IMG/VR virus record: IMGVR_UViG_3300032217_001005
Location: 1-35,098 of that record
Reading direction: 5' to 3' (one strand)
Origin: a virus
DNA length: 35,098 bases
A program made the translations under genes and the position numbers. This document shows, one piece after another, positions 2,634 to 30,248 of this stretch. Position 1 is the stretch's first letter. Every line of letters begins with the position of its first letter. The notes under the pieces are model-generated. The model saw nothing but the letters and a program-made list of their open reading frames with translations. It ran no database searches and was not told the origin of the DNA.

Positions 2634-3173
2634 ATGAAAGCATACTCACAAATTGACGGCTGGTTTAATCATGAAGATGTATATAGGTTTTTAGTATCTC
2701 AATGTGCATTTTGTGGCACTTTTGTTGAGTGTGGGGCATGGCTTGGGAAAAGCTCTGCATACTTAGTTGACATATCTGAATATAAAAAATTAAACGTATG
2801 GATTGTTGATAGCTGGCAGGGATCATCTAATGAGTTAGATACTCATCACAAGCTTGTTAAACATTCAGATATATACGCATCATTTCTTTCTAACATGGGA
2901 AATAGAAAGTTTCAACACGTAAAAGCTTTATCTTGTGAAGCAAGTTTACAATTCGATAATGAATCTTGCGACGTTGTATTTATAGATATGGAACATACAT
3001 ATGAAGCTGTTAAAAACGACATAGAGCTATGGCTACCAAAAGTTAAGAGTGGTGGATATCTTGCTGGTCATGATTATCATACTAACTGGCAGGGTGTCAT
3101 ACAGGCTGTTGATGAAAAATTTGGAAATAATATTACGGTTGATAACACTTGCTGGATATATAGAAAGGAATAA
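2634..3173 (+). CDS. Class I SAM-dependent methyltransferase
   Basis: A 179-aa protein of the Methyltransf_24 type. SAM-binding motif I is at residues 30-44 (FVECGAWLGKSSAYL), a post-motif acidic residue at the end of strand 2 is D59 (VWIVDSW), and the strand-4 motif is at 112-124 (CDVVFIDMEHTYE), followed by LPKVKSGGYLAGHDYH at 134-149. These small enzymes usually methylate sugars or small acceptors and are common in nucleotide-sugar or surface-glycan clusters. It starts at an ATG two bases after the preceding stop, with AGGA at 2625-2628, and is followed after one base by the GDP-mannose dehydratase gene. The pairing suggests a methylated deoxysugar, but the acceptor is unknown. Confidence 0.8.
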   Translation: MKAYSQIDGWFNHEDVYRFLVSQCAFCGTFVECGAWLGKSSAYLVDISEYKKLNVWIVDSWQGSSNELDTHHKLVKHSDIYASFLSNMGNRKFQHVKALSCEASLQFDNESCDVVFIDMEHTYEAVKNDIELWLPKVKSGGYLAGHDYHTNWQGVIQAVDEKFGNNITVDNTCWIYRKE

Positions 3174-3174
3174 T

Positions 3175-4236
3175 ATGCGTCAGGCAATTATATTTGGAGT
3201 AACCGGACAGGATGGAAGCCATCTCGCAGATCTTCTACTATCTAAAGATTATCACGTTTTCGGTGTTTCAAGAAGAACCAGCACAGATAATACCCAAAGA
3301 ATAAAGCACCTAGAAGGATCACATAGATTTAAGTTGGTCGAGGGAGACATCACAGATGTAAGTAGTGTAATTAATATCTTTAGAAATTACGACGATGTAG
3401 ATGAAATCTATAATCTAGCCGCACAATCGCATGTTGGAACTTCATTTAAGCAACCAGCCCTTACTTGGGATATTACCGGCAAAGGTTGTATTAACCTTCT
3501 ACAGTCAATTGTAGATTGTCACATGTTTGGCGCACGGTTTTATCAAGCTTCCTCTAGTGAAATGTTTGGTAGTTCTTACGATATTGACCGTAACGGCAAT
3601 AAATATCAAGATGAAAATACTAAGTTTATGCCGAATTCCCCATACGCAATTGCAAAATGCGCCGCTCATTATGCCGTTAGAATGTATAGGGACGCATATA
3701 GCTTACATGCAAGTGCTGGAATATTATTTAATCACGAAGGCCCGCGCAGAGGCGATAACTTTGTAACCAAAAAAATAACTAATTGGATACAGTCTTTTTC
3801 TTCTTGGATGCACAAATATGACATAAAGCCAGAACAAATGTGTCCATCTGGAGACTACATCTATGGCCCCGTACAGGGCATGAGCTTTAAAAAATTAAGA
3901 CTTGGCAACATAGACACGTATAGAGATTGGGGCTACGCTGGCGACTACGTAGAGGCCATGTGGTTGATGTTACAGCAAGAAGACCCCGACGATTACGTTG
4001 TATGCACAGAACAAACACATACTGTGGCTGAATTTTTAGATATAGCGTTTAACTCTTTAGGCTTACCAGCTTGGAGAGATTATATAGTAATAGATCCAGA
4101 GTTTTATAGGCCGTCTGAAGTTACATATCTGAAAGGGAGTTTTAAGAAAGCCAAGGAAAAACTAGGTTGGACACCCCGCCACGATCTAGAGGGCTTAATT
4201 AAACTTATGCTACTTGACGGAAATGAGAAACTTTAG
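3175..4236 (+). CDS. gmd: GDP-mannose 4,6-dehydratase
   Basis: A 353-aa extended short-chain dehydrogenase/reductase. It shows the NAD(P)-binding GVTGQDG at residues 8-14, the active-site ASSSEMFG at 125-132 (Ser and E129), the YAIAK catalytic Y157/K161, and NHEGPRRGDNFVTKK from 186, close to the GMD signature. The C-terminal part contains DWGYAGDYVEAMWLMLQQ, also characteristic. The enzyme converts GDP-D-mannose to GDP-4-keto-6-deoxymannose, the precursor of GDP-fucose, GDP-rhamnose or GDP-perosamine. Start ATG 3175 has AAGGA just upstream. No reductase or epimerase follows here, so the final sugar depends on host or distant phage genes. All catalytic residues are present, so it is probably active. 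Confidence 0.95.
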   Translation: MRQAIIFGVTGQDGSHLADLLLSKDYHVFGVSRRTSTDNTQRIKHLEGSHRFKLVEGDITDVSSVINIFRNYDDVDEIYNLAAQSHVGTSFKQPALTWDITGKGCINLLQSIVDCHMFGARFYQASSSEMFGSSYDIDRNGNKYQDENTKFMPNSPYAIAKCAAHYAVRMYRDAYSLHASAGILFNHEGPRRGDNFVTKKITNWIQSFSSWMHKYDIKPEQMCPSGDYIYGPVQGMSFKKLRLGNIDTYRDWGYAGDYVEAMWLMLQQEDPDDYVVCTEQTHTVAEFLDIAFNSLGLPAWRDYIVIDPEFYRPSEVTYLKGSFKKAKEKLGWTPRHDLEGLIKLMLLDGNEKL

Positions 4237-13803: not shown

Positions 13804-16800
13804 ATGATTCTATCAAAGCCACAACTGGTAGAAAATATAGCTAGAGAGATATCAGATAATTCAACTGGTCAAATTTCACCACATGATATTAGACATAACC
13901 TGTTAGATATAATTGATTCAGTTCATTTATTGACAGGTTCACAGAATCTTAGAGCAAAAAACTTTGATACGATAGATGTAAGATCTACCAGAGCCGGTGA
14001 TCTTACTCTACAAAAACTTGGTCTAGATGGATATTTTTCTGTAGATAATTCAGCTTTTGGATTTTCTGCATTAAATTCCAACTATCAAGGATCAAAAAAT
14101 ACTGCTATAGGTTCTTATTCTTTAAGTTGTAATATCTATGGTGAAGACAACGCCGCGCTTGGTTATCACGCTCTAGCTGGTAATACTAATGGCTTTGGTA
14201 ATATTGGTATTGGAAGCTATAGTCTTCACAATAACAAGATTGGTAATTTCAATATAGCTATAGGACATGGTGCTGGTTACTATGTTAATAGAGATACCAA
14301 TAATAGATTGTTCATTGCCTCTCACCCTATTGATGAAACTTATCTATGTGGTAATCCAGATGGGATAGGATTGGTTCCTCTTATTCAAGGAGATATGTCT
14401 TCTGGAAACCTTAGAGTTGGTATCGCAGTTTCTGGACTCCATGAAGGTGCCACTCTTCAAATTAGTGGTCATTTTCATCCTTCTGACTCTCTTCAATCTT
14501 TTGATATAGGTCACGGAACTTATAGATGGCGCAATATTTACTTATCACAAACTCTATCATTCCCAAGCAATAATTATATTACATATGATAATGCTGGCGA
14601 TAGGTTTTTAATAAGTAATGAAACCGTTATTGGCGGTCCAGCATCTATAGGTGGAGATACGGATGTTAGTGGTAATTTAGTAGCCACTGGACACGCCGAT
14701 TTCGGTAGCTATATGAATGTTGGTGGTAAACTAGATGTCAATGGCAGAATAGATGCTAGTGGAAGTTTTAAACCAAAAGTATCTAGTGCTTTTAATTTGG
14801 GCGATTTTGATAAACGCTGGTTAAATGCCTATGTAGATAATATTTATGTTAGTGGCGTTGGTAGATTTAAACGATTTGAAGCAGTAGAACAGGCACACTA
14901 TTTACACAAAACAGTACACCTAGCATCTAGTGGTTATATTAACACTATTGATGGTGGTGGTCCAAACGGTCTATATGATTACTATAACCCAAATGAAGAA
15001 AACGTTTTACCAGTTGGATATTTAATTGACGAAGAACTCAATGGCGCTGGTTTTAATGTAAGATCACGCGGTGTTGATTACGAAAGAACTTACGAGTTTA
15101 CTTTTCACTCTCAAGACTCAGCATTAAAAAATCTATCAATAGACAATCCCTATTCACGTTCTTATTGGAATTCTAATGTTAGCATTCATACTAACTCTGG
15201 TTGCCATATTAGAACAGATAGAATTATCAGTAGCGATGTTATTGCGGCAGTAACGTACAACGACGGACTTGGGTATTTCATCGCAAGTGGAAAGACCTAC
15301 TCAACAAATGAGCATAATTTAAGTAGCAATTTAGCTGGCATTGGTAATGTTAACTTTATAGCACATTCTGGCGAACAAGACAAATATACTATCACATTTG
15401 CAAGTCCAGCTTCTGGCGTAAATATTAACCAAAGATTTCTATCAAACGTTAAAACAAAAACTATTGATCAAGAGACTAATAAAGAAAAGTTAACTGGTTT
15501 TGAAACATCTTATATTTCAGATTCTCAACTTACACAGCCAGTGTTTTTCAATGAGCAAGTGGGGCAAAGTCCAAGTAGATTTGTAATAAAGTCATATAAT
15601 GATTCATCGTATGCTAAACGCTCTTTTACTCTCTTGCAAGATGCAGCGGACGGATTTGTTGGAATAAGTAATTTTGGGTATTCCGACAATATGCTTCCAG
15701 ATACCATTTTAAATATCAGAAGCACTGGAAACGCCATTATAAGAGCTACAGCAGAAAACCAAGGCTCAACAGTTTCTTCTCTACAATTGCTTGGTAAAGA
15801 AAATTGTTTAAAATATGGCACAGAATTAGAATATCTCAATAATAGCGGGACGTTCAACATTAACATCTATAAAGACGAAAATAAAATAAACTTCGTCAAA
15901 GCTATAGATAGCGGACGAGCTAGTATTTTTAATTCTGGCATTCCACATGCAATGTTAACGATGGGTGATAGAGTAAATCATGAAGCTGTAGTTAGCTTAT
16001 ATCATTGCTCTGGCATACCTTCTGGTTACGCTAATTATGCGCAAGTTTTTACAAAAGCAAAATCAGACGTATCACAAGCTTCATCATTAAATTTTGTGGA
16101 TGCAAGCGGTAACATTTTTGAAGTTGTAATGAATTCTATAGACATTGGGGGGCAAAATTTAGATAAACCATTACTAGCAGATAATTCTGGAAATACACTT
16201 GGTGGTAGATTCTCTCCAAATAGCAAAGCTAATTTGGCAATGTCAACTAATAATACCGCTTTAGGATATAGAGCGTTATCATACATAGCTGGCGGCAACA
16301 ACAATACGGCAATTGGATACAATGCTGGCAGCGGCATTAGCACCGGTAGTAATAACGTTATACTTGGCTATAACTCTGCTAGATCTATAAAGAATGGATC
16401 TAATAACATAGTCATTGGAAATAATTTATTAAACACCTATCCTTCTGGAAGTAGCAACAATTTTGTACTTGGATCAGACAACAATATTTTGATGTCTGGT
16501 AATTTAACAACTAAGAATATGATTATGCCAGAAGGCAAACTATTCTTAACTAATACATCAAACGAAAGCATAAAAGTACAGGCTAATCTTATTGAAGTCA
16601 TTGATAGCGGTGGCAGCAACTATCCAGACAACAAGCTTGTATTTAAGTTTAGTGGTAATAACTCTTCTGATCTATTAAAACTAGATCACAACGCTAATCC
16701 AGTAAGTAAAAGTGCTAATTATCAAAATCCAGCAACACCAAGACCACACGCTGAACTTAATGGAGATTTAAAACTTCTTGGGGCTATTAGATTTAGCGAT

Positions 16801-17181
16801 GCTACATCTGTTGAGTCAGCCAGCTTCTTGCAAGACATTGCTAATCTAAGTAACAATGGATCTTCAACAGCTAGCGCACTCACTTCACTTACAAACTCAT
16901 TTAACAATTTGCTTAATGCATACAACAATTTAATCATTGAAGGCTTCGCCCAAGAAAACATAGCTGCACCACAAAACCCAAATGCCCCGACTACCGGTAG
17001 AATTAGACCAAAAGAAAAAGTTGGCGGTGTTTGGAGAGATAAGGTTGTTCCCGCTGGTCAAAATCCATTTATCTCAATTATAAATAGAGATCCTTTCTTA
17101 AAGATTAATAGTTCTGATTATGTAATTGCTATCAAGATCAACGACGAATACAGACCGATGTGGGTAAGCTATAATAGTTAG
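13804..17181 (+). CDS. Large fibre protein with YadA-head-like repeats, 1125 aa
   Basis: A long beta-rich fibre. Residues 1-45 form a helical N-terminal domain (LVENIAREISDNSTGQISPHDIRHNLLDIID) also found at the start of the protein at 31845, probably a virion attachment unit. Residues about 82-160 and again about 816-876 carry repeats of the NTAIGYNAG / NNVILGYNSA type, the left-handed beta-roll seen in YadA and haemagglutinin heads and in many phage fibres. Between them are modules such as SFDIGHGTYRWRNIYL and FNLGDFDKRWLNAYVDNIYV, common in tail fibres. About 1005-1045 is a likely trimeric coiled coil (LTSLTNSFNNLLNAYNNL). No S74 chaperone motif is apparent. Probably a trimeric fibre. Confidence 0.8.
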   Translation: MILSKPQLVENIAREISDNSTGQISPHDIRHNLLDIIDSVHLLTGSQNLRAKNFDTIDVRSTRAGDLTLQKLGLDGYFSVDNSAFGFSALNSNYQGSKNTAIGSYSLSCNIYGEDNAALGYHALAGNTNGFGNIGIGSYSLHNNKIGNFNIAIGHGAGYYVNRDTNNRLFIASHPIDETYLCGNPDGIGLVPLIQGDMSSGNLRVGIAVSGLHEGATLQISGHFHPSDSLQSFDIGHGTYRWRNIYLSQTLSFPSNNYITYDNAGDRFLISNETVIGGPASIGGDTDVSGNLVATGHADFGSYMNVGGKLDVNGRIDASGSFKPKVSSAFNLGDFDKRWLNAYVDNIYVSGVGRFKRFEAVEQAHYLHKTVHLASSGYINTIDGGGPNGLYDYYNPNEENVLPVGYLIDEELNGAGFNVRSRGVDYERTYEFTFHSQDSALKNLSIDNPYSRSYWNSNVSIHTNSGCHIRTDRIISSDVIAAVTYNDGLGYFIASGKTYSTNEHNLSSNLAGIGNVNFIAHSGEQDKYTITFASPASGVNINQRFLSNVKTKTIDQETNKEKLTGFETSYISDSQLTQPVFFNEQVGQSPSRFVIKSYNDSSYAKRSFTLLQDAADGFVGISNFGYSDNMLPDTILNIRSTGNAIIRATAENQGSTVSSLQLLGKENCLKYGTELEYLNNSGTFNINIYKDENKINFVKAIDSGRASIFNSGIPHAMLTMGDRVNHEAVVSLYHCSGIPSGYANYAQVFTKAKSDVSQASSLNFVDASGNIFEVVMNSIDIGGQNLDKPLLADNSGNTLGGRFSPNSKANLAMSTNNTALGYRALSYIAGGNNNTAIGYNAGSGISTGSNNVILGYNSARSIKNGSNNIVIGNNLLNTYPSGSSNNFVLGSDNNILMSGNLTTKNMIMPEGKLFLTNTSNESIKVQANLIEVIDSGGSNYPDNKLVFKFSGNNSSDLLKLDHNANPVSKSANYQNPATPRPHAELNGDLKLLGAIRFSDATSVESASFLQDIANLSNNGSSTASALTSLTNSFNNLLNAYNNLIIEGFAQENIAAPQNPNAPTTGRIRPKEKVGGVWRDKVVPAGQNPFISIINRDPFLKINSSDYVIAIKINDEYRPMWVSYNS
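14047..14284 (+). repeat. First cluster of YadA-head-like repeats
   Basis: Degenerate units of about 14-28 residues with the pattern NxAIGxxSL / NIGIGSYSL / NIAIGHGAG. They encode a beta-roll in the N-terminal part of the 1125-aa fibre. DNA identity between units is low, so this is old protein-level repetition. Confidence 0.7.
16249..16431 (+). repeat. Second cluster of YadA-head-like repeats
   Basis: Units NNTALGYRALS, NNTAIGYNAGS, NNVILGYNSAR and NNIVIGNNLL repeat at 16-20 residues. This is the same fold as the cluster 2 kb upstream in the gene, giving the fibre two beta-roll sections. Confidence 0.75.
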
Positions 17182-17185
17182 TTAT

Positions 17186-17935
17186 ATGAATGAAGGCTGT
17201 TTTATCAATGAAGATTGTCAAAGGCCAAAATTAGCTGGCAAAAAACATGATCCACTACTAGATGTTCCAACAAGACCATATTTAGATTTACCCACTCAGA
17301 CGGCATCAACAACCACCACGACCACAACAACGACCATTACTCCATATGATCCAGAACTTCTTGATCTTATTGTAATTCCAGTGAGTGGTAAAGCTTGCCC
17401 AATCATTTTAGTTCCACAAACAACTACAACTACCACTACAACTATTAATCCATTATATGTTCTAGGAGGATTAAAGGGCAAATTTAACACATCTAGCGAT
17501 TCAATGTCAACTATTAGCGAAGGAAATGTTGGCATAGATATACCAATATCTGGAGGTGTAGTTTTATCAAATATTAGCTATAACAATGCTGGAGATTATT
17601 ACAGCTTTCTTGCTTTTGGATATTTTAGGCCACCTGTAAATGGAATGTATACATTTTCCACAACTAGCGATGATGGTAGCGCAGTTTGGCTTGGTGTGCT
17701 AGCCAGCATAGATAATGGACGTAATACTACAAACGCATTAATTAACAACAACGTTACTGGCGTTCAAGGTGCTACCAAAAAAAGCGCTTCTATTTTACTC
17801 ACTGGAAATACATTTTATCCAATTAGAATTGTACATAGGGATGGAATACTTCAAGACGGTTTAACATTTTCTTGGAGCGGGCCAAACATAGAGGAAACAA
17901 CAGATTTAACTGAATATTTTTATTACGACAAATAA
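17186..17935 (+). CDS. Poly-Thr-linked protein with PA14/GLEYA-like domain
   Basis: A 249-aa protein starting four bases after the preceding stop. Two poly-threonine linkers lie at residues 42-50 and 79-86. They surround a short segment with PYDPELLDLIVIPVSGKACPI, reminiscent of a beta strand plug. Residues about 95-245 resemble a PA14/GLEYA carbohydrate-binding beta sandwich: YYSFLAFGYFRPPVNGMYTF, TTSDDGSAVWLG, and FYPIRIVHRDG...LTFSWSGP. Such domains bind glycans on adhesins and glycosidases. It heads a run of three proteins that share Thr linkers, likely parts of one appendage. The glycan-binding role is inferred from the family. Confidence 0.7.
   Translation: MNEGCFINEDCQRPKLAGKKHDPLLDVPTRPYLDLPTQTASTTTTTTTTTITPYDPELLDLIVIPVSGKACPIILVPQTTTTTTTTINPLYVLGGLKGKFNTSSDSMSTISEGNVGIDIPISGGVVLSNISYNNAGDYYSFLAFGYFRPPVNGMYTFSTTSDDGSAVWLGVLASIDNGRNTTNALINNNVTGVQGATKKSASILLTGNTFYPIRIVHRDGILQDGLTFSWSGPNIEETTDLTEYFYYDK
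17309..17335 (+). repeat. ACN codon tract, 9 Thr
   Basis: Nine consecutive Thr codons using ACA, ACC and ACG in mixed order. Mixed codons mean it is kept for the amino acid rather than being a pure microsatellite, though slippage is still possible. Confidence 0.9.
17420..17443 (+). repeat. ACN codon tract, 8 Thr
   Basis: Eight Thr codons (ACA, ACT, ACC). It separates the short N-terminal segment from the PA14/GLEYA-like domain. Confidence 0.9.
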
Positions 17936-17944
17936 GGACGGGTT

Positions 17945-20281
17945 ATGGCTAACGCAATAGGTTTAGCTGGATGGGAAATCGGCACCGCTAGAGGTAGAGT
18001 TGGAGCTTTTACAAAAGCTATCAATTCCCAAGATCTGAATAATGCTTTTTTTAAAAGGTTGTTCGTAAATACTGTACATTGGTCTGCTCGTAGAAACTCT
18101 AACGGTATTATTCTCTTAAGCTCTGAAAATACCACATTTGACAATTTAGTTGTTAGCGTTTTGAATTCCGCTGGATATAGCACATCTATATATGATAGAT
18201 GGTACAGCTTTAACGGCTATCCCGGAGGTCTTGGACAATTTGGATGTATGCTATTATTGCCAAGCTATAATCCATTTGGTGGCACTAAAATGCCAGATTC
18301 TGGACAATCCCAAATTCTTAACGAAGTCAGAAATATTGGCATGGGTCTGATTATATCAGAATGGTTCCATTATTTGCAGTCTTTACCTTCTAAAAGGTCT
18401 TTTTCTTTTACGAGTAATCCGCTTCTTGGGTTACACGAAATTTCTCCAATCACAATAGAAGACTATATAACATATTCAGATCCAGATAAAATTGTTTTTT
18501 CAAAAAACGTTGAACAAGATAGTATTTCATACAATATTCCTGAACAGTTCACTGTTAATGCTAAAGGTTATGCAGTTGGCTACGATGGAACAATCTCACA
18601 AATATCCACTGCTAAACCTAATGCTACTATATTTACGTTTACGGACGTTTTTGCTAGAGGCACAACTACTACCACTACTACAACAACAATAGCCCCTTCT
18701 AGAAATATTAAGTTAAAAGTTGCAGATATCAATCTTATAGATTACTGCGGCCCACATATAGTAACTATGAATGGTCCAAGCAAAGACTATTTTTTGCTAG
18801 AAAACAACGAGCTATTTCTCACAGAAAATACTGGCGCTACTGGTATATACAGCGTAACAATCTCTGTAGACGATTTATTTAATCCAAAAAGATTTAACAC
18901 AATACAAAAAACATACAATTTAGAGCTAGCAAGGTGCGACCCACCAATTTCTAAACCTCTTGATGGTTCCGGTCCAGCGTTTTCTTATCGTGGACTGTCT
19001 GTTAATGGAAACAACATGCAGTCACTATGGGGCCAACAAACTCCATACGGTATCATATCACCATTCACAGACTTTTCATTAAACGGAGAGGGTTCTCCAG
19101 ATGATCCTATTGTAGCATGGCTTGGTGGGCAGCACGGAGACACCAACGCTTTGTGGCTACAGATTAATAAATCTGGACTATTAAATTGGAATCTTAGGAT
19201 TTCATCTGAACCCAACCGTGACTACGCTTCTGTGTGGATAGTAAGTGCTAGCGGAGCTAAAGCAACACAACATACGCAACAATATAATGAAGAGTATAAA
19301 AACCTAACTAAATATAAATCCCTAGTTCCAACGGTCGATACAGACGCAAATGCCGTATTCAACATGTCGCAACTTACTGGATCGTCTACCAGCGTTGGAT
19401 CAAGAAACATAGACATACCACTAAATGACAAAATAAAAACATTTTTAGTAGTTACCTATGCTAAAGATGAAAAAAAGAGTATTGATGATGATAAGATATA
19501 TGCTCAATTTTTTATTGGAACCACAACAACCACTACTACAACTACCACAAGTACTACACCGACACCCACAACGTCAACAACAACTACAACTACAGAGCCA
19601 CCACCAAATTACACTTACACTTTAAATTTCATAGATAATATTGATTTTGGATCAATTTCTCCATTTTCATTAACTCTCGTATATCCTCGCGGTGGTTCCG
19701 CTATGGTTGGTTCTATATATTACTATGTAGATCAACCGGGATATTATTTTGCAAATCAACCAACTGTATTGAATGTTAATTCTCCAATTTCATTTTCGTA
19801 CTTTTTTAATAGGATTGATTTTTATCTCAACGGTATGCCAGAAAATGGTGGATCACAAACTATTATTATTCAAGGTGTAGCTGTTCCAACTACAACCACA
19901 ACAACAACCACAACAACCACAACGACAACATTAAGACCTTGCGATAATTTAATATACGTGCTATGCAAACAAACATTAAAATGCTTAAAATCTGGAGGTA
20001 GCTGTTTACCAAATTTAAGTGCTAGCACAAATGAAGTTGTTTTAGACTCTTGTTGTGATCTTACTCAAGCGGAAATGTTGGCGCTGTTTATATCTGAATA
20101 CGGCAACACTCCAAGCGTACAATTTGGAAGTAGATGCCCAAACATACCAACATCAGCATTTTCAGACTGTGCATCAGTAGACTCAGATGGAAATTGTCAA
20201 GACATCATTAATTATGAAACTTTAGATACTATGCAGTGTCGTTCATCGCAATTACCTCCAGATATTAACCCACTGCCATAA
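17945..20281 (+). CDS. Multidomain appendage protein with three poly-Thr linkers, 778 aa
   Basis: ATG 17945 follows AAGGA. Residues 1-235 form a globular domain with LSSENTTFDNLVVSVLNSAG, FGCMLLLPSYN and MPDSGQSQILNEVRNIGMGL, which reads like a class I glutamine-amidotransferase/ThuA-like alpha-beta fold; I see no Cys-His-Glu triad, so it may be non-enzymatic. Thr linkers follow at 240-248, 526-550 and 649-662. Between the first two is a cadherin-like repeat (DYFLLENNELFLTEN...YSVTISVDD) and a beta-rich domain of about 190 residues. Between the second and third is a short beta domain of about 95 residues. The C-terminal 115 residues are cysteine-rich (CDNLIYVLCKQTLKCL, DSCCDL, RCPNI, QCRSS), probably disulfide-bonded. 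Likely an adhesin or appendage component. Confidence 0.65.
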   Translation: MANAIGLAGWEIGTARGRVGAFTKAINSQDLNNAFFKRLFVNTVHWSARRNSNGIILLSSENTTFDNLVVSVLNSAGYSTSIYDRWYSFNGYPGGLGQFGCMLLLPSYNPFGGTKMPDSGQSQILNEVRNIGMGLIISEWFHYLQSLPSKRSFSFTSNPLLGLHEISPITIEDYITYSDPDKIVFSKNVEQDSISYNIPEQFTVNAKGYAVGYDGTISQISTAKPNATIFTFTDVFARGTTTTTTTTTIAPSRNIKLKVADINLIDYCGPHIVTMNGPSKDYFLLENNELFLTENTGATGIYSVTISVDDLFNPKRFNTIQKTYNLELARCDPPISKPLDGSGPAFSYRGLSVNGNNMQSLWGQQTPYGIISPFTDFSLNGEGSPDDPIVAWLGGQHGDTNALWLQINKSGLLNWNLRISSEPNRDYASVWIVSASGAKATQHTQQYNEEYKNLTKYKSLVPTVDTDANAVFNMSQLTGSSTSVGSRNIDIPLNDKIKTFLVVTYAKDEKKSIDDDKIYAQFFIGTTTTTTTTTTSTTPTPTTSTTTTTTEPPPNYTYTLNFIDNIDFGSISPFSLTLVYPRGGSAMVGSIYYYVDQPGYYFANQPTVLNVNSPISFSYFFNRIDFYLNGMPENGGSQTIIIQGVAVPTTTTTTTTTTTTTTLRPCDNLIYVLCKQTLKCLKSGGSCLPNLSASTNEVVLDSCCDLTQAEMLALFISEYGNTPSVQFGSRCPNIPTSAFSDCASVDSDGNCQDIINYETLDTMQCRSSQLPPDINPLP
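18662..18688 (+). repeat. ACN codon tract, 9 Thr
   Basis: Nine Thr codons joining the N-terminal alpha-beta domain to the cadherin-like region. Confidence 0.9.
19520..19594 (+). repeat. Long Thr/Ser/Pro codon tract (25 residues)
   Basis: A 25-codon stretch of Thr with a few Ser and Pro, the most mucin-like linker in the window. Confidence 0.9.
19889..19930 (+). repeat. ACN codon tract, 14 Thr
   Basis: Fourteen consecutive Thr codons, mostly ACA and ACC, the longest uninterrupted run. It tethers the cysteine-rich C-terminal domain. Confidence 0.92.
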
Positions 20282-20282
20282 A

Positions 20283-21827
20283 ATGACATCTGTACCAATA
20301 ACAACAACGGTTGCACCGCAATGTCCATGTGGATCATTGTACTTACCTAAAGGTAGAGCTTTTTCTACTTCTGGTTTATATGTTCATATAGCAAATTTAG
20401 AATTAGATTTATTACACTCTCAAGATATTTACTTGGAGTCTGGTGAAAAGTTTGTTACAGTTACGCCAATTATCAGAGATCACATAATACCAAATAAACT
20501 ATCTATATCTCACGCTTCTCCCATAATTATTAATAACGTCATACAGGTTGTTGTTAAAGATAAATTAAGCAAAGCCATACTAGGAACTCAATACATTGGA
20601 AAATACAATGAAGCAACCACAATAAACAGCATAATGGTAGATTTACATTCTAGCATTGATTTATATTATAGTGCTATCATTATTGAAATATATAGCTTGT
20701 GCGACAATGGATCTGATCCATGTTGTGATAAATTACCATCTGAGATAGATATAGTTGGGCCAAGATTACTATGTGTTCCTTTAGAGCAATACTACGTTCT
20801 TCCAACTACAACAACCACAACTACTCCAGAACCTTTCACAATAGAATTTTTAACTAGTCCAACAAATCAAATTGTAAATTCGACTACCACGGCGACATTT
20901 TCTTTTAGTGCAATCTCTCTATATGACAAAAATTTTACGTATTGGTGGGAAAAATCTGAAGACGGCGGGTTATCTTGGAATAAGGCGTCACGCTTGCTTA
21001 TTGGAAAATCAAGACAAGTACATACTCTTGTTGTTGCTTCATCATTACGAATGAATGGCTATAAATATAGGGTTGTAACTATTGATCCAAAGATTAAATA
21101 CAGCAATGTCGCAACACTATTTGTTATTCAGCCTACAACTACAACAGCTACTACCACAACATTTAACCCAGTTACCACCACCTTACCGCCTTGTGATTTA
21201 CAAATTTTTGGATCTAGTTCAAATACTACAACCACAAGCACAACAGGATCACCATCTTCAACAACTACCTCTACAACCACAACATTGTTGCCATCTTCTG
21301 CTTCGGCATACTATTTAGTTGTAAACTCTGCATATGGTGGTAAATATTGTGAAGATGGCACATACAATGGAAAACCAAAGTACAACAAAGTTGGAACATC
21401 CTTATATATTTACTATGTTGAGACAAATTGGAGAATAAATGATGTAGGTAACTTAGGCAACTTAAGCTCCAACGTTTACGGCTTTGTAATTAGCGGAAAC
21501 GCTCCACCCACTGGAATGAACTGGTTTGATCAGAATACTGGAAATGATTTAATTCTTGTGAATAATTTTTATACAACTGTTGGTCAATCTAGCTCATCAT
21601 ACACATTCTTACACTACGGAACAAATTTTAACGGAAAACCATTATACACAAGCCTAAATGAATATTGGCAAATGAGATACACTTCATATTGGGTAATAGA
21701 AGATATATCTGACTCAAGCCCAATTGAATTATGGGCTAATTATTCTAGTTCTAGCACACCACCATTAAACGGATGGGTTAGTTTTAGTTCTGCCCCTCCC
21801 ATCACTCTTATTGGGCCAAGTTGTTAA
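20283..21827 (+). CDS. Poly-Thr-linked appendage protein with Ig-like and twin NGKP modules, 514 aa
   Basis: ATG 20283 begins one base after the preceding stop, so translation is probably coupled. Residues 1-170 are a beta-rich domain with paired cysteines (CPCG; CDNGSDPCCDKLP). A Thr linker at 175-181 leads to an Ig-like domain (about 185-283; FTYWWEKSEDGGLSWN and YKYRVVTID). Two Thr/Ser-rich linkers follow (285-300, 315-334). The C-terminal 170 residues contain two copies of a module with YNGKPKY / FNGKPLY and a WRI / WVIED end, as in a W-ending module I have seen in diverse surface proteins. The architecture indicates a host- or glycan-binding appendage protein with the same linker style as the two genes upstream. 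Confidence 0.65.
   Translation: MTSVPITTTVAPQCPCGSLYLPKGRAFSTSGLYVHIANLELDLLHSQDIYLESGEKFVTVTPIIRDHIIPNKLSISHASPIIINNVIQVVVKDKLSKAILGTQYIGKYNEATTINSIMVDLHSSIDLYYSAIIIEIYSLCDNGSDPCCDKLPSEIDIVGPRLLCVPLEQYYVLPTTTTTTTPEPFTIEFLTSPTNQIVNSTTTATFSFSAISLYDKNFTYWWEKSEDGGLSWNKASRLLIGKSRQVHTLVVASSLRMNGYKYRVVTIDPKIKYSNVATLFVIQPTTTTATTTTFNPVTTTLPPCDLQIFGSSSNTTTTSTTGSPSSTTTSTTTTLLPSSASAYYLVVNSAYGGKYCEDGTYNGKPKYNKVGTSLYIYYVETNWRINDVGNLGNLSSNVYGFVISGNAPPTGMNWFDQNTGNDLILVNNFYTTVGQSSSSYTFLHYGTNFNGKPLYTSLNEYWQMRYTSYWVIEDISDSSPIELWANYSSSSTPPLNGWVSFSSAPPITLIGPSC
20805..20825 (+). repeat. ACN codon tract, 7 Thr
   Basis: Seven Thr codons then Pro-Glu-Pro, preceding the Ig-like domain. Confidence 0.88.
21135..21182 (+). 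repeat. Interrupted Thr codon tract
   Basis: Four Thr, Ala, four Thr, then Phe-Asn-Pro-Val and three more Thr, just after the Ig-like domain. Confidence 0.85.
21225..21284 (+). repeat. Thr/Ser-rich codon tract (20 residues)
   Basis: Twenty codons of Thr and Ser with one Gly and one Pro, preceding the C-terminal NGKP modules. Confidence 0.85.
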
Positions 21828-21832
21828 ATACT

Positions 21833-22255
21833 ATGATAATCACAACAGACAAAAAACACTTAATATTCAGATGCGCAGAGCGTGGATATTCAATAGAAGA
21901 AGTTATGCCATGTGTTATAACTCAAGATGGAGATAATTGGACTATAGACACATCTCACTCAAGTTATCCAAAATCTCAAAAAATACAAATAGATAGTGGC
22001 GTTGGAACAGAAATAAAAAAGCTATTAAAGCTAATAGGAATTACATCTTCACCAACTTGCTATTGTAATGCTAGAGCTAAAATTATGAATGAAAATGGAA
22101 TACGGTGGTGTGAGGATAATAAAGACACAATAGTTGGATGGCTAGAGGAAGAGGCGAACAGAAGAAATTTACTGTTTTCGCCGTATTTGGCTACAATATT
22201 ACTCAATTTTGCTATTAAAAAAGCCAAAAAAGCCCAGATCAAACAAAACTCATAA
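21833..22255 (+). CDS. Conserved phage protein with C-x-C and WC motifs
   Basis: I chose ATG 21833 (140 aa; MIITTDKKHLIFRCAERGYS) over an in-frame TTG 12 bases upstream that overlaps the preceding gene. The N-terminal half reads 'RGYSIEEVMPCVITQDGDNWTID'. The second half has GVGTEIKKLLKLIGI, then C76-x-C78 (CYCNARAKIMNENG), C93 (RWCEDN) and a helix GWLEEEANRR. The cysteines (C76, C78, C93, perhaps C14 or C27) could bind a metal. I recall similar small proteins in the structural regions of other phages and bacterial genomes, but no function is known to me. It may be an assembly factor or small virion protein. Confidence 0.7.
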   Translation: MIITTDKKHLIFRCAERGYSIEEVMPCVITQDGDNWTIDTSHSSYPKSQKIQIDSGVGTEIKKLLKLIGITSSPTCYCNARAKIMNENGIRWCEDNKDTIVGWLEEEANRRNLLFSPYLATILLNFAIKKAKKAQIKQNS

Positions 22256-24008: not shown

Positions 24009-25973
24009 ATGGTTCAGTCTATAACACTTCAGACTAGTGATAGCGATATCATATCTGGAGATATTTTAGGAAGACTTTCTTTTGCAGCCTCTAGTGAAAC
24101 TAGTGGATCAGACGCATTGTTAATAGGTGGCGGCATTTATGCAGAAGCAGAGGATACATTTACACAAATTGTAAATGCTACATCTTTAGTTTTTTCTACA
24201 GCTAGCAGCGAAACCGCTATTGGTAAACTAAAAATTACTAGTAGCGGTTATTTTTTGCCGATGTTAGATAATACATATGATATAGGATCTAACTCTTTTG
24301 TGTTTAGAAATTTATATGTCAATAGTGGTATTTTCACAAATTTGTCTGTTAGTGGCGTTAATGTTAGTTTAGTTGGACATACTCATACAGCGTCAAATAT
24401 TACAGATTTCAATACTGCTGTAAGTGGATTATTGCCAGTTAAAAATATAGTAGCTGGAAGCAATATTACTATTAGTTCATCTAGTGGTGTTTTTACAATA
24501 AATTCTACAGCTAGCGGTGGTGGAGGTTCATCCTCAACGGTGCGAGGATCTATTAGCACTACCAGAGTATTATCTTCTTTTAACGTCACTGGAGGATATT
24601 CTGTTGGCTATTTGGACTTATTTCAAAATGGTGTAAAATTATTAGCTGGTAGTGATTTTACTGCAACTGACGGAACCTCAGTGACTTTAAGTAATAGTGT
24701 TCCGTCTGGAACAGTCCTAGAGTATATAAGTTTGGGAGCCTCTTTAACTTCCACCAGCTATATAAAGTTAGATAGTATCAGTTCATCTTTTAACGGTTCA
24801 TCTACATCATTTGGATTAGCGGTTAGCGGAACAGCTTATTATCCAGTTAGCGCCAATACTTTGGGAATTTATGTGGGTGGAGTTGCTCAAGAGCCAATTG
24901 TCTCATATAGCGTTAGCGGATCAAACATAGTGTTTACTGAAGCTCCTGCTAGCGGTTTAACTTTTTGGGGAGTTGGTTATGGAACAACAGCGGTAGCTAC
25001 ACTAAATGGAATAGTTCCCGGTTCTTCAGGATCTCCAGCTATTAGTTCATCAAACGATTTAACTAGTGGTTTTTATTTTCCTAGTTCTGGTAATATTTCA
25101 GTAGCTGGTAATTTAGGAATAGGAACCAGTAGTCCATCAACATTATTAGACGTTAATAACAATAAATTCCGAGTAAGAAATAGCAAGACACCATCTTCGG
25201 CCACTGATACTGGTAATACAGGAGATATTTGCTGGGATAGTAGCTATATTTATGTTTGTACTAATACAAACTCTTGGACAAGAACTCCAATAAGTGCTTG
25301 GAGTAGTGATCCTTATTTTAGTTATATTTCTTTGCTATTGCATATGGATGGTACTGGAAGTTCTTTTGTTGACTCCTCACTATCTCCAAAAACAATAACA
25401 GCAACCGGCTCGGCTACCCAAACTAGCGCACAAAGTAAGTGGGGAGGTAAAAGTGCTAGCTTAACAAGCGGCAGTCTTACAACTCCAAGTTCAAGTGCTT
25501 TTGCTTTTCCAAATGACTTTGTTATAGAGGGATGGTTTCGCTTTAATGCAAATAATACAGGATATCAACCATTAATTACTGCTTATTCTGGAGGAGATGC
25601 TACTGGGTGGGCATTAATTCTTGAAACAAATAATACTTTAAATTTTTATGGATCATCCGGTAGCGGATGGGGCTTAACTTTTTCTTCCTCTTATATTCCA
25701 ACAACTAATCAATGGATTTATATTACTGTATCTAGAACAGGATCTACTATTCGCATGTGGATTGATGGTACGTCAATCGCTTCTGGTACCACTACTATGT
25801 CTATAGCATCTGGAGGCACTGTTGCTGTTGGATATTACCCATATTTCCCCGGAGGAGCAAGATCATTTGATGGGTATATAGATGATCTACGCATAACCGT
25901 AGGTTCTAATAGAGGGTATAGTGGTTCAACCATAACAGTTCCCACAGCCGCTTTTCCAAACTATAATACTTAA
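24009..25973 (+). CDS. Fibre/adhesin with C-terminal LamG-like domain, 654 aa
   Basis: ATG 24009 is one base after the preceding stop; no ribosome binding site is seen, so translation is probably coupled. Residues 1-430 are fibre-like beta modules: DNTYDIGSNSFVFRNLYV, LVGHTHTASNITDF, and SGFYFPSSGNISVAGNLGIG. From about residue 440 a concanavalin/LamG-like domain begins with LLLHMDGTGSSFVDSS, and continues with a strand pattern FVIEGWFRFN, WIYITVSRTG and YIDDLRITVG. LamG domains bind sugars or proteins on surfaces, so this is a likely receptor-binding fibre. A paralogous LamG domain occurs in the next gene. Confidence 0.75.
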   Translation: MVQSITLQTSDSDIISGDILGRLSFAASSETSGSDALLIGGGIYAEAEDTFTQIVNATSLVFSTASSETAIGKLKITSSGYFLPMLDNTYDIGSNSFVFRNLYVNSGIFTNLSVSGVNVSLVGHTHTASNITDFNTAVSGLLPVKNIVAGSNITISSSSGVFTINSTASGGGGSSSTVRGSISTTRVLSSFNVTGGYSVGYLDLFQNGVKLLAGSDFTATDGTSVTLSNSVPSGTVLEYISLGASLTSTSYIKLDSISSSFNGSSTSFGLAVSGTAYYPVSANTLGIYVGGVAQEPIVSYSVSGSNIVFTEAPASGLTFWGVGYGTTAVATLNGIVPGSSGSPAISSSNDLTSGFYFPSSGNISVAGNLGIGTSSPSTLLDVNNNKFRVRNSKTPSSATDTGNTGDICWDSSYIYVCTNTNSWTRTPISAWSSDPYFSYISLLLHMDGTGSSFVDSSLSPKTITATGSATQTSAQSKWGGKSASLTSGSLTTPSSSAFAFPNDFVIEGWFRFNANNTGYQPLITAYSGGDATGWALILETNNTLNFYGSSGSGWGLTFSSSYIPTTNQWIYITVSRTGSTIRMWIDGTSIASGTTTMSIASGGTVAVGYYPYFPGGARSFDGYIDDLRITVGSNRGYSGSTITVPTAAFPNYNT

Positions 25974-25982
25974 GGAATAATT

Positions 25983-26999
25983 ATGCCTCTTTCATCACTA
26001 CAAAGCAACAGATTTAACAGAAGCATGAATGATCTGGGCAATAGCGGATCGTCAAAAACCATAGCTTTACCAGAGAACTATAATGCTATGTTGACTTGTT
26101 CTTTGAGCGCCAACTGCACCTTCACTATGCCTTCGCCGGTTAATGGCTATCAATTCTCTTTATTATTAAAACAAGATGCTACTGGTGGGCGAACTGCAAC
26201 TTTTACTAATGTAAAATGGCCTAACAGTACAGCCCCAACTATTTCTACTAGTGGTTTTACTATGGATATTATCAATTTCTTTAGTGATGGAACTAATTGG
26301 TATGGATACTTAGGAAATAGTCAAAATTTTGATGGCTATTCTGGATTAGGAGATAAATATTTTAATAGTGTGGCTTTATTGTTACATATGGACGGAACAG
26401 GATCTTCGTTTGTTGATTCGTCTCCTACTCCAAAAACAATAACAGCAGTCGGTTCTGCTTCTCAGTCTGCCATTCAAAGCAAATGGGGAAGCAAGAGTCT
26501 TTTGATTGACTCAGTTAGCAAATACTTGTCTTTAAGCTCTTCGGGTTTTTCATTTTCCGGTAACTTTACTATGGAGTGCTGGGTATACATGACAGGCTCG
26601 GCAAGTTCGTATGTTCTGCTTGAAGGCAGGTCAGACCCTAATGCATATCAAGATTTTGTCTGGTATTTAGATAGAGGCGGATACAACGGATTTGTTGTCT
26701 CATCAAGCGGTGGACGATTTGATGGAACAAGTGCAATAGTTTCTCAAAATCAATGGACGCATGTTGCTCTAGTACGATCAAACGGGGTGTTTTCTGCATA
26801 CGTCAACGGAGTGCGAGATACACTACAAGTGTCGTATTCGGGAACAATTACCCCAGCCAACTCAATATTAAAAATCGGCTCAAATGCACAAAATAATTTC
26901 AGTGGATATATTGATGATTTTAGAATTACAATTGGTGTAGCGAGATACACGACCGCTTCATTCTCTGTTCCAACAGCAGCATTTTCTGACTCTATTTAA
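25983..26999 (+). CDS. Adhesin with LamG-like domain, 338 aa
   Basis: ATG 25983 after AAGGAAT. Residues 1-115 form a beta domain (LTCSLSANCTFTMPSPVNGY ... DGTNWYGYL) resembling the C-terminal tips of the two previous fibre genes but here at the N-terminus. From about residue 130 the protein has a LamG-like jelly roll: ALLLHMDGTGSSFVDSS, FTMECWVYMTG, WTHVALVRSNGVFSAYVNG and YIDDFRITIG. It is a paralogue of the C-terminal domain of the gene just upstream, so a tandem domain duplication is likely. Probable role is binding a host-surface ligand. Confidence 0.75.
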   Translation: MPLSSLQSNRFNRSMNDLGNSGSSKTIALPENYNAMLTCSLSANCTFTMPSPVNGYQFSLLLKQDATGGRTATFTNVKWPNSTAPTISTSGFTMDIINFFSDGTNWYGYLGNSQNFDGYSGLGDKYFNSVALLLHMDGTGSSFVDSSPTPKTITAVGSASQSAIQSKWGSKSLLIDSVSKYLSLSSSGFSFSGNFTMECWVYMTGSASSYVLLEGRSDPNAYQDFVWYLDRGGYNGFVVSSSGGRFDGTSAIVSQNQWTHVALVRSNGVFSAYVNGVRDTLQVSYSGTITPANSILKIGSNAQNNFSGYIDDFRITIGVARYTTASFSVPTAAFSDSI

Positions 27000-27220: not shown

Positions 27221-27604
27221 ATGGCAGCTAGTCCAGTATTCGCAGTAACGCCCATAATAGGCATGAATCAAGTAAGCGTAGCAAATACCAATAGAGACGG
27301 AACAACAGGAACTTATGTTAATTTAGTTACTGCCGCCGCTAGCGGAACCAGAATAGCAGAAATCGTCACGCAAGCGACGGTCACAACTACTGCTGGTATG
27401 GTCAGGCTTTTTTTAACAGATGGCTCAACGACTAGAATGTTTGATGAAATAGCAATATCCGCTGCTACTGTTTCTGCTAGCGTTAAAGGAAATAGGGTTA
27501 GTACATTATATACTAACGTTGTTATTCCTAGCGGATGGAGTATTAAAGCTTCCACAAATAATGCTGAAGCTATAAACGTATTTGCACTAGGAGCAGATTT
27601 GTGA
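27221..27604 (+). CDS. Conserved virion protein, 127 aa
   Basis: ATG 27221, after AGGAG, opens MAASPVFAVTPIIGMNQV. Further segments VANTNRDGTTGTYVNLVTAA, TTTAGMVRLFLTDGSTTRMF and IPSGWSIKASTNNAEAINVF match a recurrent small phage structural protein, probably a single beta sandwich. Its stop overlaps the GTG start of the BspA/FN3 adhesin, so the two are likely made together. It may be a fibre base or capsid-associated unit. Function is inferred from context only. Confidence 0.7.
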   Translation: MAASPVFAVTPIIGMNQVSVANTNRDGTTGTYVNLVTAAASGTRIAEIVTQATVTTTAGMVRLFLTDGSTTRMFDEIAISAATVSASVKGNRVSTLYTNVVIPSGWSIKASTNNAEAINVFALGADL

Positions 27605-29757
27605 ATAATGGTATTTTTGGTGGTGATTTTCCTCCAAGTCGTTCATTAATAAATAATGGAGTGCTAAATACTCCGTCTAATGTAATTCCAACAACGTATG
27701 GACAAGGAGCAAATAGAGGGGTCGGTATTAATTATGACAACTTAGTGTTTTTATTTAACACTGCATTAGAAGCTGATAATATTGTAAGCTTTTCTTTTGG
27801 TGGAACTGTAAACTGTTTTGTAGATTGGGGTGACGGTGTTGTAGAAACTTTTAAAACCACTGGAACTAAAACTCACACGTATCCTAGCAAAGGCTTATAT
27901 ACTGTGCAGATAGGAGGAACACTATCTACTATATCTTTTGCGGCTATGACAGGTAGAGGAAAGCTAATTAGTTGTTTATCTTTTGGTAGTTTATCATTGT
28001 TGGTTTTATGTTCATTTAATGGTTGTACTAACCTTACTAGTGTTCCAAACCAAATCCCAATAACACTTACTAGCTTGGCTGGCATGTTTCAGGGATGTTC
28101 TAGATTCAACAGTCCCTCTGTAATAACTTGGGATACTAGCCGTATTACCGATATGAACTACGCTTTTGCTACACAAACTTCTTTCAATCAGCCTATTGGA
28201 GGATGGAATACTAGTAGAGTTACAAATATGGACAATATGTTTTTGCAAAGTTCTTTTAATCAGCCCATTGGTGGATGGAATACTAGTTCAGTCACAAATA
28301 TGGGCAATATGTTTTCACAGGCTCAAAATAATGGTTTTAATCAAGACATTGACGCTTGGGACGTTAGTAATGTTACTAATATGTCTCAAATGTTTTATAT
28401 CAATCCATATATGAATCGTAGTTTAAACTCTTGGAATACAAGCAGAGTAACAAGTATGAGCTTAATGTTTTACCAAGCTCAAGCATTTAATGGAAATATT
28501 GGTAATTGGAACACTAGTTCTGTCAATTATATGAATGATATGTTTTTTCAGGCTTTTACTTTTAATAAAGACATTAGTAATTGGAATTTTAAGGGCATTA
28601 ATGCTACTGCTAATTTAGATAGATTTATGTCATCAGCTACTGCATTTAGTACTACTAACTATAATGCTCTTCTTATATCCATGAATAATAACAAATCATC
28701 CGCTCCGTATAGATCAGATTTAAGGCCGGGGTTTTCCGCTACATATACTGCTAGTAGCGCAGCCGCTGCTGCGCGAGCAGCTTTAGTAACTTATGGCTGG
28801 ACCATTACAGATGGAGGAACAGTTAATGCCGTCCCAGATGCTCCAACATCAGTATCTGGAACCGCTGGAAATACTCAAGTATCTTTAACTTGGGTGGCAC
28901 CAACCTATAATAACGGAGCAGCAATAACGGACTATACAATACAATATAGTAGCAATTCAGGATCATCATGGTCCACATTTAGTCATGCCGCCTCAACTGC
29001 AACATCCATTACAGTTACGGGACTTACAAATAGTACAGCTTATATATTCAGAGTTGCTGCCGTAAACTCTGTAGGAACTGGATCTTATTCAGCTAACAGT
29101 AGCTCTGCTACGCCAGTGTTGGCATCTTTTACTCCAACCGCCGTGTTACTTACTAGTGGAACGTCATATACAGTTCCTACTGGAGCAACTAGCATGAAAG
29201 CTTGGGCTGTGGGAGCAGGAGGAAATGGATATCTTACAGGATCATTAGTATCTGGGGCTGGAGGATGTTCTTACAAAACATGGTCTGTTTCAGGCGGCAA
29301 CGCTGTTTCGTACTCTGTGGGTATAGTCCCAGCAACTGGTAATGGCGGGAGTACAACGGTCACATTCGGAGGGGTGACTATTACGGGGTCGGGCGGCGGG
29401 TCTACTGGTACCGGTGGAGCTTATTCTGGTGGGGATGGTGGAGCAAACGGTGGTGGTGGAGTCGTGTTCGGCGGTGGAAACGTAGCCGGTCAAGGCTCTG
29501 CTGGTGGGGCCGTAGGTGGAAACGGAACAAAACAATCATGCGGGCGACTTATATCCACAGATGTCAATGGATTGCTCTCGGCGGTCGCTCTCGCTGGAGG
29601 AAAAACGACAGAAGACTGCGGAACTGCGGCGGCATTCGGATCGGGTTCGTACAACGACAAGTTTACCAATAAAACTGCTGGCCTTGGTGGAGGATTTGCG
29701 ACAAGCTATGCCAACGCGGCGGCAGGAGGCGGGGCTGTAGTCCTGTATTTTACATGA
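27601..29757 (+). CDS. BspA-repeat / FN3 / glycine-rich adhesin, 718 aa
   Basis: GTG start at 27601 overlaps the previous stop (GTGA). A PKD-like strand with FVDWGDGVVETF lies around residues 73-84. Residues about 130-345 carry BspA-type (DUF285) repeats of 24-27 residues, such as FNQPIGGWNTSRVTNMDNMF. An FN3 domain spans about 411-506 (APTSVSGTAGNTQVSLTWVAP). From about 515 to the end is a glycine-rich domain (YTVPTGATSMKAWAVGAGGNG; GGGGVVFGGGN), reminiscent of glycine-rich adhesin tips such as the T4-type gp38 proteins of other phages. The DNA of the last 430 bp is GC-richer than the rest. Likely a receptor-binding protein. Confidence 0.75.
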   Translation: MNNGIFGGDFPPSRSLINNGVLNTPSNVIPTTYGQGANRGVGINYDNLVFLFNTALEADNIVSFSFGGTVNCFVDWGDGVVETFKTTGTKTHTYPSKGLYTVQIGGTLSTISFAAMTGRGKLISCLSFGSLSLLVLCSFNGCTNLTSVPNQIPITLTSLAGMFQGCSRFNSPSVITWDTSRITDMNYAFATQTSFNQPIGGWNTSRVTNMDNMFLQSSFNQPIGGWNTSSVTNMGNMFSQAQNNGFNQDIDAWDVSNVTNMSQMFYINPYMNRSLNSWNTSRVTSMSLMFYQAQAFNGNIGNWNTSSVNYMNDMFFQAFTFNKDISNWNFKGINATANLDRFMSSATAFSTTNYNALLISMNNNKSSAPYRSDLRPGFSATYTASSAAAAARAALVTYGWTITDGGTVNAVPDAPTSVSGTAGNTQVSLTWVAPTYNNGAAITDYTIQYSSNSGSSWSTFSHAASTATSITVTGLTNSTAYIFRVAAVNSVGTGSYSANSSSATPVLASFTPTAVLLTSGTSYTVPTGATSMKAWAVGAGGNGYLTGSLVSGAGGCSYKTWSVSGGNAVSYSVGIVPATGNGGSTTVTFGGVTITGSGGGSTGTGGAYSGGDGGANGGGGVVFGGGNVAGQGSAGGAVGGNGTKQSCGRLISTDVNGLLSAVALAGGKTTEDCGTAAAFGSGSYNDKFTNKTAGLGGGFATSYANAAAGGGAVVLYFT
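28183..28614 (+). repeat. BspA-type (DUF285) protein repeats, 72-81 bp units
   Basis: At least five units with pattern FNxxIxxWNTSxVTxMxxMFxQA. The first two (from 28183 and 28255) are 72 bp apart and nearly identical in DNA, suggesting recent duplication or homogenisation. The rest are more diverged. Confidence 0.85.
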
Positions 29758-30248
29758 GCGAAATTTTAAGATCACCTATTACCCATAACGCCGTTTTACT
29801 AATACCTCGCAGCGGCTCCCATTCTTTAGCGGTTGCAGCCATGCGCACTTTTTGGCCGGATATTGAAATAACTAATGAGGCTCACCCAGCGATATATTTT
29901 GGTTGCGAAGAATGGTGGGATGGTACCAATAAAAATATTGCAATTATTGTAAGAAATCCGATTGAGCGTTTTCGATCCATGTGCGCGCACAGACCAGATC
30001 GCACAATTAAAGAACAACTTGCTGATCCCATTTACGGCCCATTGCCAACTGGTAACTTTGTCTGCTATTTCCGTTTTGAAGATCAACTCAACGAAGCTGC
30101 TAAATGGCTTGGACTTCCTACTCCTTTACCGCAAGAAGATGCTACCGATCCCGCATCAAAACCCAACCTAACTTTAGAACAAGAATCTATTGTCAAGAAA
30201 ATTTATGCTGATGATATTGCCCTTTGGGAAAGTTTACAACAACAATGA
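29754..30248 (+). CDS. Small sulfotransferase-like protein
   Basis: A 164-aa protein whose ATG overlaps the adhesin stop (ATGA). Residues 17-25 (IPRSGSHSL) match the 5'-phosphosulfate-binding loop of PAPS-dependent sulfotransferases. R67 and S75 (VRNPIERFRSM) match the 3'-phosphate-binding Arg and Ser, with the correct spacing of eight. A YFRFEDQLNEAAKWLGLP segment matches the usual 'EDL...fLGL' end. It is shorter than most (about 250 aa), so an acceptor cap may be missing. The substrate may be a host glycan, lipid or virion residue; the tight coupling to the adhesin suggests a link to surface recognition. Confidence 0.7.
   Translation: MSEILRSPITHNAVLLIPRSGSHSLAVAAMRTFWPDIEITNEAHPAIYFGCEEWWDGTNKNIAIIVRNPIERFRSMCAHRPDRTIKEQLADPIYGPLPTGNFVCYFRFEDQLNEAAKWLGLPTPLPQEDATDPASKPNLTLEQESIVKKIYADDIALWESLQQQ

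Follow-up and report, generated by a model that had tools for sequence, protein, structure and literature searches.

Serine-rich-repeat (SRR) adhesins, which are bacterial secreted proteins, are O-glycosylated on serine and threonine in the cytoplasm, and their GtfA/GtfB systems share with the locus described here a hydroxyl-rich stalk that presents a binding domain, soluble glycosyltransferases (GTs) being candidates in our case too (PMC7661464). The phage tracts are shorter and Thr-based. The GTs of the relatives include GT4 domains, and no GtfA/GtfB homologue appeared in a sequence search of the PDB, where a 553-aa GT from the relatives had no match and a 375-aa GT resembled other GT4 enzymes weakly. 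Glycosylation of virion proteins has been described for mycobacteriophage Che8 and its relatives (Freeman et al. 2023, as cited in PMC11256854 and PMC12619734). The likeness lies in phage-encoded GTs, present here in long relatives, and in virion proteins as possible targets; the glycans are reported there on capsid and tail tube subunits, whereas the candidate sites here are poly-Thr linkers with hypothetical glycans, and any homology between the two sets of genes would be conjectural. For phage GTs, effects on host serotype and a role in modifying DNA are reported as well (PMC12619734). Low-complexity regions surveyed in phages and prokaryotes likewise form conserved segments of proteins, but those of phages are enriched in Ala, Gly and Pro (PMC6821194), while the segments studied here are poly-Thr, occur family-wide and join domains. 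In the literature searched, we found no phage case of poly-Thr.

The window, by which we mean the whole 35-kb stretch of a virus record that was analysed (35,098 nucleotides), belongs to a large, widespread lineage of uncultured aquatic phages. Among 50,697 phage records neither its major capsid protein nor any of the three tract proteins had a match, and the only relatives in isolated phages were weak matches for the terminase and one GT. A pattern scan of viral contigs recovered capsid relatives encoded in at least 597 stretches, the best 80 of which were 84-99% identical, the longest contig among them measuring 174 kb. The window itself is probably a fragment of a larger phage genome. A host call from genome contigs was dropped because the four metagenome-assembled genomes (MAGs) concerned belong to different taxa. 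One such contig (VFHP01000009.1), filed under a SAR202 bacterial MAG, encodes a capsid protein 86% identical to that of the window; it may therefore derive from a phage and have been sorted into the bacterial bin.

Three consecutive plus-strand genes, situated between capsid genes and tail-fibre-like genes, carry the tracts. The first (17186-17935) encodes a 249-aa protein with a short N-terminal segment, two Thr tracts and a C-terminal PA14/GLEYA domain (Pfam PA14, E 4e-15, PF07691 at 56.3 bits against a cutoff of 24; GLEYA, E 1.4e-12). This domain is what it shares with PA14/GLEYA adhesins; here, in contrast, Thr tracts attach it to a family-specific N-terminal segment, and binding is putative. 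The second gene (17945-20281) encodes a 778-aa modular protein of four segments linked by three Thr tracts, and the third (20283-21827) a 514-aa modular protein; neither product matched a family in Pfam, PHROGs or NCBIfam. From gene position and the PA14 domain, all three are probably virion surface proteins of a tail or adhesin type.

Scanning these genes gave nine tracts, all read on the plus strand. The 249-aa protein has tract 1 (TASTTTTTTTTTIT; 17300-17341) and tract 2 (8 Thr; 17420-17443). The 778-aa protein has tract 3 (9 Thr; 18662-18688), tract 4 (25 residues of Thr, Ser and Pro; 19520-19594) and tract 5 (14 pure Thr; 19889-19930), and the 514-aa protein tract 6 (7 Thr; 20805-20825), tract 7 (21135-21161), tract 8 (21225-21245) and tract 9 (21261-21284). 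Their Thr codons (46 ACA, 23 ACT, 17 ACC and 5 ACG) are mixed, at frequencies near those found elsewhere in the window (chi-square p 0.03). Overall the tracts exceed chance by far: uninterrupted Thr runs reach 9, 14 and 7 residues in the three proteins, in gene order, whereas 5000 composition-preserving shuffles yielded at most 6, 7 and 7. Taken alone, the 7-Thr run of the third gene is borderline. No other gene of the window has a Thr run longer than 3. An AlphaFold2 model of the 778-aa protein, of low confidence, showed an alpha/beta N-terminal part followed by beta-rich segments, with low pLDDT at the Thr tracts; a fold search with this model gave no clear match, and most segments lying between tracts have no assignment.

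Comparison with relatives indicated that the tracts are held at the protein level. In the scanned loci the coding strand reads Thr in frame at all 341 (ACN)8 positions, and homopeptide runs of at least six residues were formed by Thr in 121 cases, by Gly in 21 and by all other amino acids together in 6. Amino acid change within tracts was about one-third as frequent as elsewhere and was accompanied by synonymous codon turnover. Between the window and L002 the amino acid had changed at 3 of 66 tract codons versus 144 of 953 elsewhere, and 31 of 57 conserved tract Thr used a different codon; for L097 the corresponding values were 11 of 68, 388 of 943 and 38 of 56. Tract 3 ranked first for conservation among the 770 nine-residue stretches of the 17945 protein when nine proteins of 31-98% identity were aligned, every one of its 81 cells holding Thr or Ser. 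A caveat is that the aligner prefers to match Thr runs to one another. Single-residue interruptions, collected from 133 tracts, were Ser in 96 of 124 cases (77%), compared with the 13-26% expected from mutation, and Ala or Ile in 5 (4%), compared with 32-64%. Some of these interruptions sit in repeated (TTTS)n arrays and are thus partly dependent; counted per tract, Ser occurred in 63 of 74 interrupted tracts. The predominance of Ser, where transitions would produce Ala and Ile, suggests that a side chain with a hydroxyl is required, subject to the reservation just made about repeat arrays.

The tracts also divide the proteins into exchangeable parts. When segments were cut at the tracts and clustered, common N-terminal segments were followed by varied domains in shuffled order. 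The clearest case lies in the 514-aa protein, where DNA similarity to L002 and L096 stops at 21235, inside tract 8, and resumes at 21851; the C-terminal domains encoded between these points are unrelated, and L002 carries an extra gene in the swapped interval that is related to window gene 29754-30248. As judged from such alignments the tracts serve as joints for terminal domain exchange, by an exact breakpoint in this case and by domain order in others. Selection on the tracts as protein, graded together with this modularity, is well supported. The initial annotation had listed eight Thr tracts, including the 14-Thr run, as connections between domains of these proteins, and had argued from their mixed codons that the amino acid is selected. 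Both arguments held up, the latter through the in-frame Thr, the low replacement rate and the conservation of tract 3, and the count is reproduced when tracts 8 and 9 are joined.

Our preferred reading, to which we assign a probability of about 0.7, is that the tracts are selected hydroxyl-rich spacers and joints of modular phage surface proteins, whose location and role we infer. The domains of such proteins are linked by Thr/Ser tracts held by protein-level selection, each tract probably forming an extended, disordered, hydroxyl-rich spacer between receptor-facing domains; tracts double as joints at which related phages have exchanged terminal domains. Linkers in phage adhesins are commonly regarded as filler; here, in proteins that evolve fast, the Thr linkers rank with the best-conserved parts, and that Ser is the main accepted substitute suggests a functional hydroxyl group. 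Domain exchange at the tracts would bear on receptor switching by phages.

The family count covered 36 loci that extend 8 kb or more past the capsid gene and that formed 31 clusters once near duplicates were removed. Tract proteins were present beyond the capsid gene in 23 loci (19 clusters); the other 12 clusters had no tract within the region examined. All but one of 58 tract ORFs lay downstream of the capsid gene, and the tracts, when defined by their Thr/Ser/Pro content, were 5 to 163 residues long. The longest stretches seen, of 163 and 99 Thr/Ser-rich residues with (TTTS)n repeats, were found in L103 at 13277 and 17020. A wider scan for patterns of at least 15 ACN repeats, a sample and no census, gave at least 120 matches, of which 80 loci were analysed. 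There the longest frame read Thr in 74 of 100 tract occurrences, and similarity to window proteins was detected within the DNA analysed in only 5 of the 80 loci. Long Thr tracts are also present in loci without detected similarity to the window family, and some of the proteins encoded in the ACN-repeat loci match PA14, C-type lectin or Ig/Hoc-like families, which counts in favour of the preferred reading.

The initial annotation had also pointed to sugar genes, and both that it named in the window are borne out. The plus-strand gene gmd (3175-4236), upstream of the terminase gene, encodes a GDP-mannose 4,6-dehydratase whose family membership is clear from both Pfam and the PDB (PF16363, E 8e-107; PDB 1n7g, E 2e-90); it has an insertion near residues 206-240 and, at 345 bits, scores below the 415-bit NCBIfam equivalog cutoff of TIGR01472. 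PF16363 matches in most relatives are likewise split near this insertion. Just before gmd, on the same strand, lies a gene for a Methyltransf_24 protein (2634-3173), a possible sugar O-methyltransferase by its Pfam match. PF16363 was matched in all but one of 23 records from relatives. The distribution of the Methyltransf_24 gene is patchy, with 8 of 23 records carrying it. No GT was found among the family matches of the window, itself a fragment. Absence of a GT from the genome had been named as a finding that would refute self-glycosylation; the long records of relatives do encode GTs, GT4 in 10 of 23 and GT2 in 8 of 23. All of these records are at least 73 kb long, so the lack of a GT in shorter ones says little. 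The L087 cluster comprises, by Pfam, three GT4 genes, two FkbM methyltransferases, one GT2 and a UDP-GlcNAc 2-epimerase, together with one weak methyltransferase match and two genes without assignment. These findings lend circumstantial support to the idea that the phage glycosylates its own appendages; three records speak against a tight link between gmd or GT genes and tracts. In the 135 kb of L044/G005, gmd and four GT4 genes were found and no tract, L058/G011 has gmd and GT4 genes and no tract except one pattern match, and L045/G006 has tracts and no GT4 match. The records examined gave no support for tracts being specifically associated with GT genes, and this idea was set aside.

How the tracts are used can be read in several ways. 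That they arise at the DNA level, whether as a hypervariable contingency repeat, through slippage of trinucleotides or from errors of assembly, is very improbable. Tract length does vary somewhat in near relatives (14 Thr in tract 5 versus 12 in L003), and Tandem Repeats Finder gives weak imperfect arrays at some tracts, but the codons are mixed, the tracts are always in frame and present on independent contigs, and most relatives keep tract 3 at 9 residues, L010 having 10. Slippage and contingency repeats were rejected on the mixed codons, the frame and this near-constant length. A far more serious contender, which we place just short of an even chance, is that the sugar genes serve other ends, for instance host surface polysaccharide or phage DNA, and that the Thr tracts are bare linkers. 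This would fit the genomes that combine GT and sugar genes with no or almost no tracts, the activities reported for phage GTs elsewhere (PMC12619734), and the position of the GT genes of L086, seen there as ORFs, and of L087, which follow replication-like genes as judged by eye from translations. Bare linkers alone, however, would not account for interruptions being so much more often Ser than Ala, Ile or Pro.

Common routes of DNA glucosylation require an enzyme of the thymidylate synthase/hydroxymethylase family. PF00303 was absent from 13 long records in which controls matched, and DNA glucosylation was rejected as the GT role on this ground; a search for TET gave no match, nor did its controls. 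It is also conceivable, at somewhat below even odds, that the tracts are mucin-like O-glycosylated stalks, decorated on Thr and Ser late in infection by the phage Gmd, which would supply a GDP-6-deoxyhexose, cytosolic GT4/GT2 enzymes, methyltransferases and possibly a sulfotransferase. The glycans would make the appendages stiffer or protect them, on the pattern of SRR adhesins. The hydroxyl-specific substitution pattern, the enrichment of Pro in tract flanks, the near-universal gmd and the GT4 clusters of long relatives, extended in L087, are consistent with this, and precedents exist in mycobacteriophage virions, as cited in PMC11256854, and in SRR adhesins (PMC7661464). Against it stand the three records above with one of tracts and GT4 genes and little or nothing of the other, the replication-like and not structural genes that precede the GT genes in L086 and L087, and the remoteness of the 553-aa and 375-aa GTs from enzymes in the PDB. 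Glycosylation would add to the preferred reading of selected spacers and joints rather than exclude it: enzymes of the phage or of the host might then O-glycosylate the tracts within the cytosol of the infected cell, a tentative step of the mechanism. If so, a widespread phage lineage would decorate its host-binding machinery, with effects on host range, shielding and proteome detection. The fullest version, in which an abundant uncultured aquatic lineage relies on a sugar pathway of its own to build appendages that are mucin-like and O-glycosylated, and uses poly-Thr both as glycan carrier and as exchange point for receptor-binding domains, we consider unlikely.

The putative sulfotransferase is a 164-aa plus-strand protein (29754-30248) in which the motifs IPRSGS and VRNPIERFRS were recognized by eye. 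It had no match in Pfam, PHROGs or NCBIfam, no significant match in the PDB and no relatives in a pattern scan of viral contigs, so that the assignment is a lead only. A profile of the protein matched four relatives' records, two of them nearly identical, with L111 and L112 among the matches. Its L002 counterpart (19741-20262) is 33% identical, and both lie beside variable adhesin genes.

In L099 a homologue of the 17945 protein (15014-18241) contains a large insert that by eye is formylglycine-generating-enzyme/C-type-lectin-like. The window proteins at 13804 and 31845 have N-terminal segments that look similar by eye, suggesting a common anchor. Two adjacent proteins (24009-25973 and 25983-26999) have one Laminin_G_3 domain each and are apparently paralogous, and an adhesin-like protein (27601-29757) combines DUF285 repeats with an fn3 domain, its gene containing a 72-base tandem repeat at 28174-28315.
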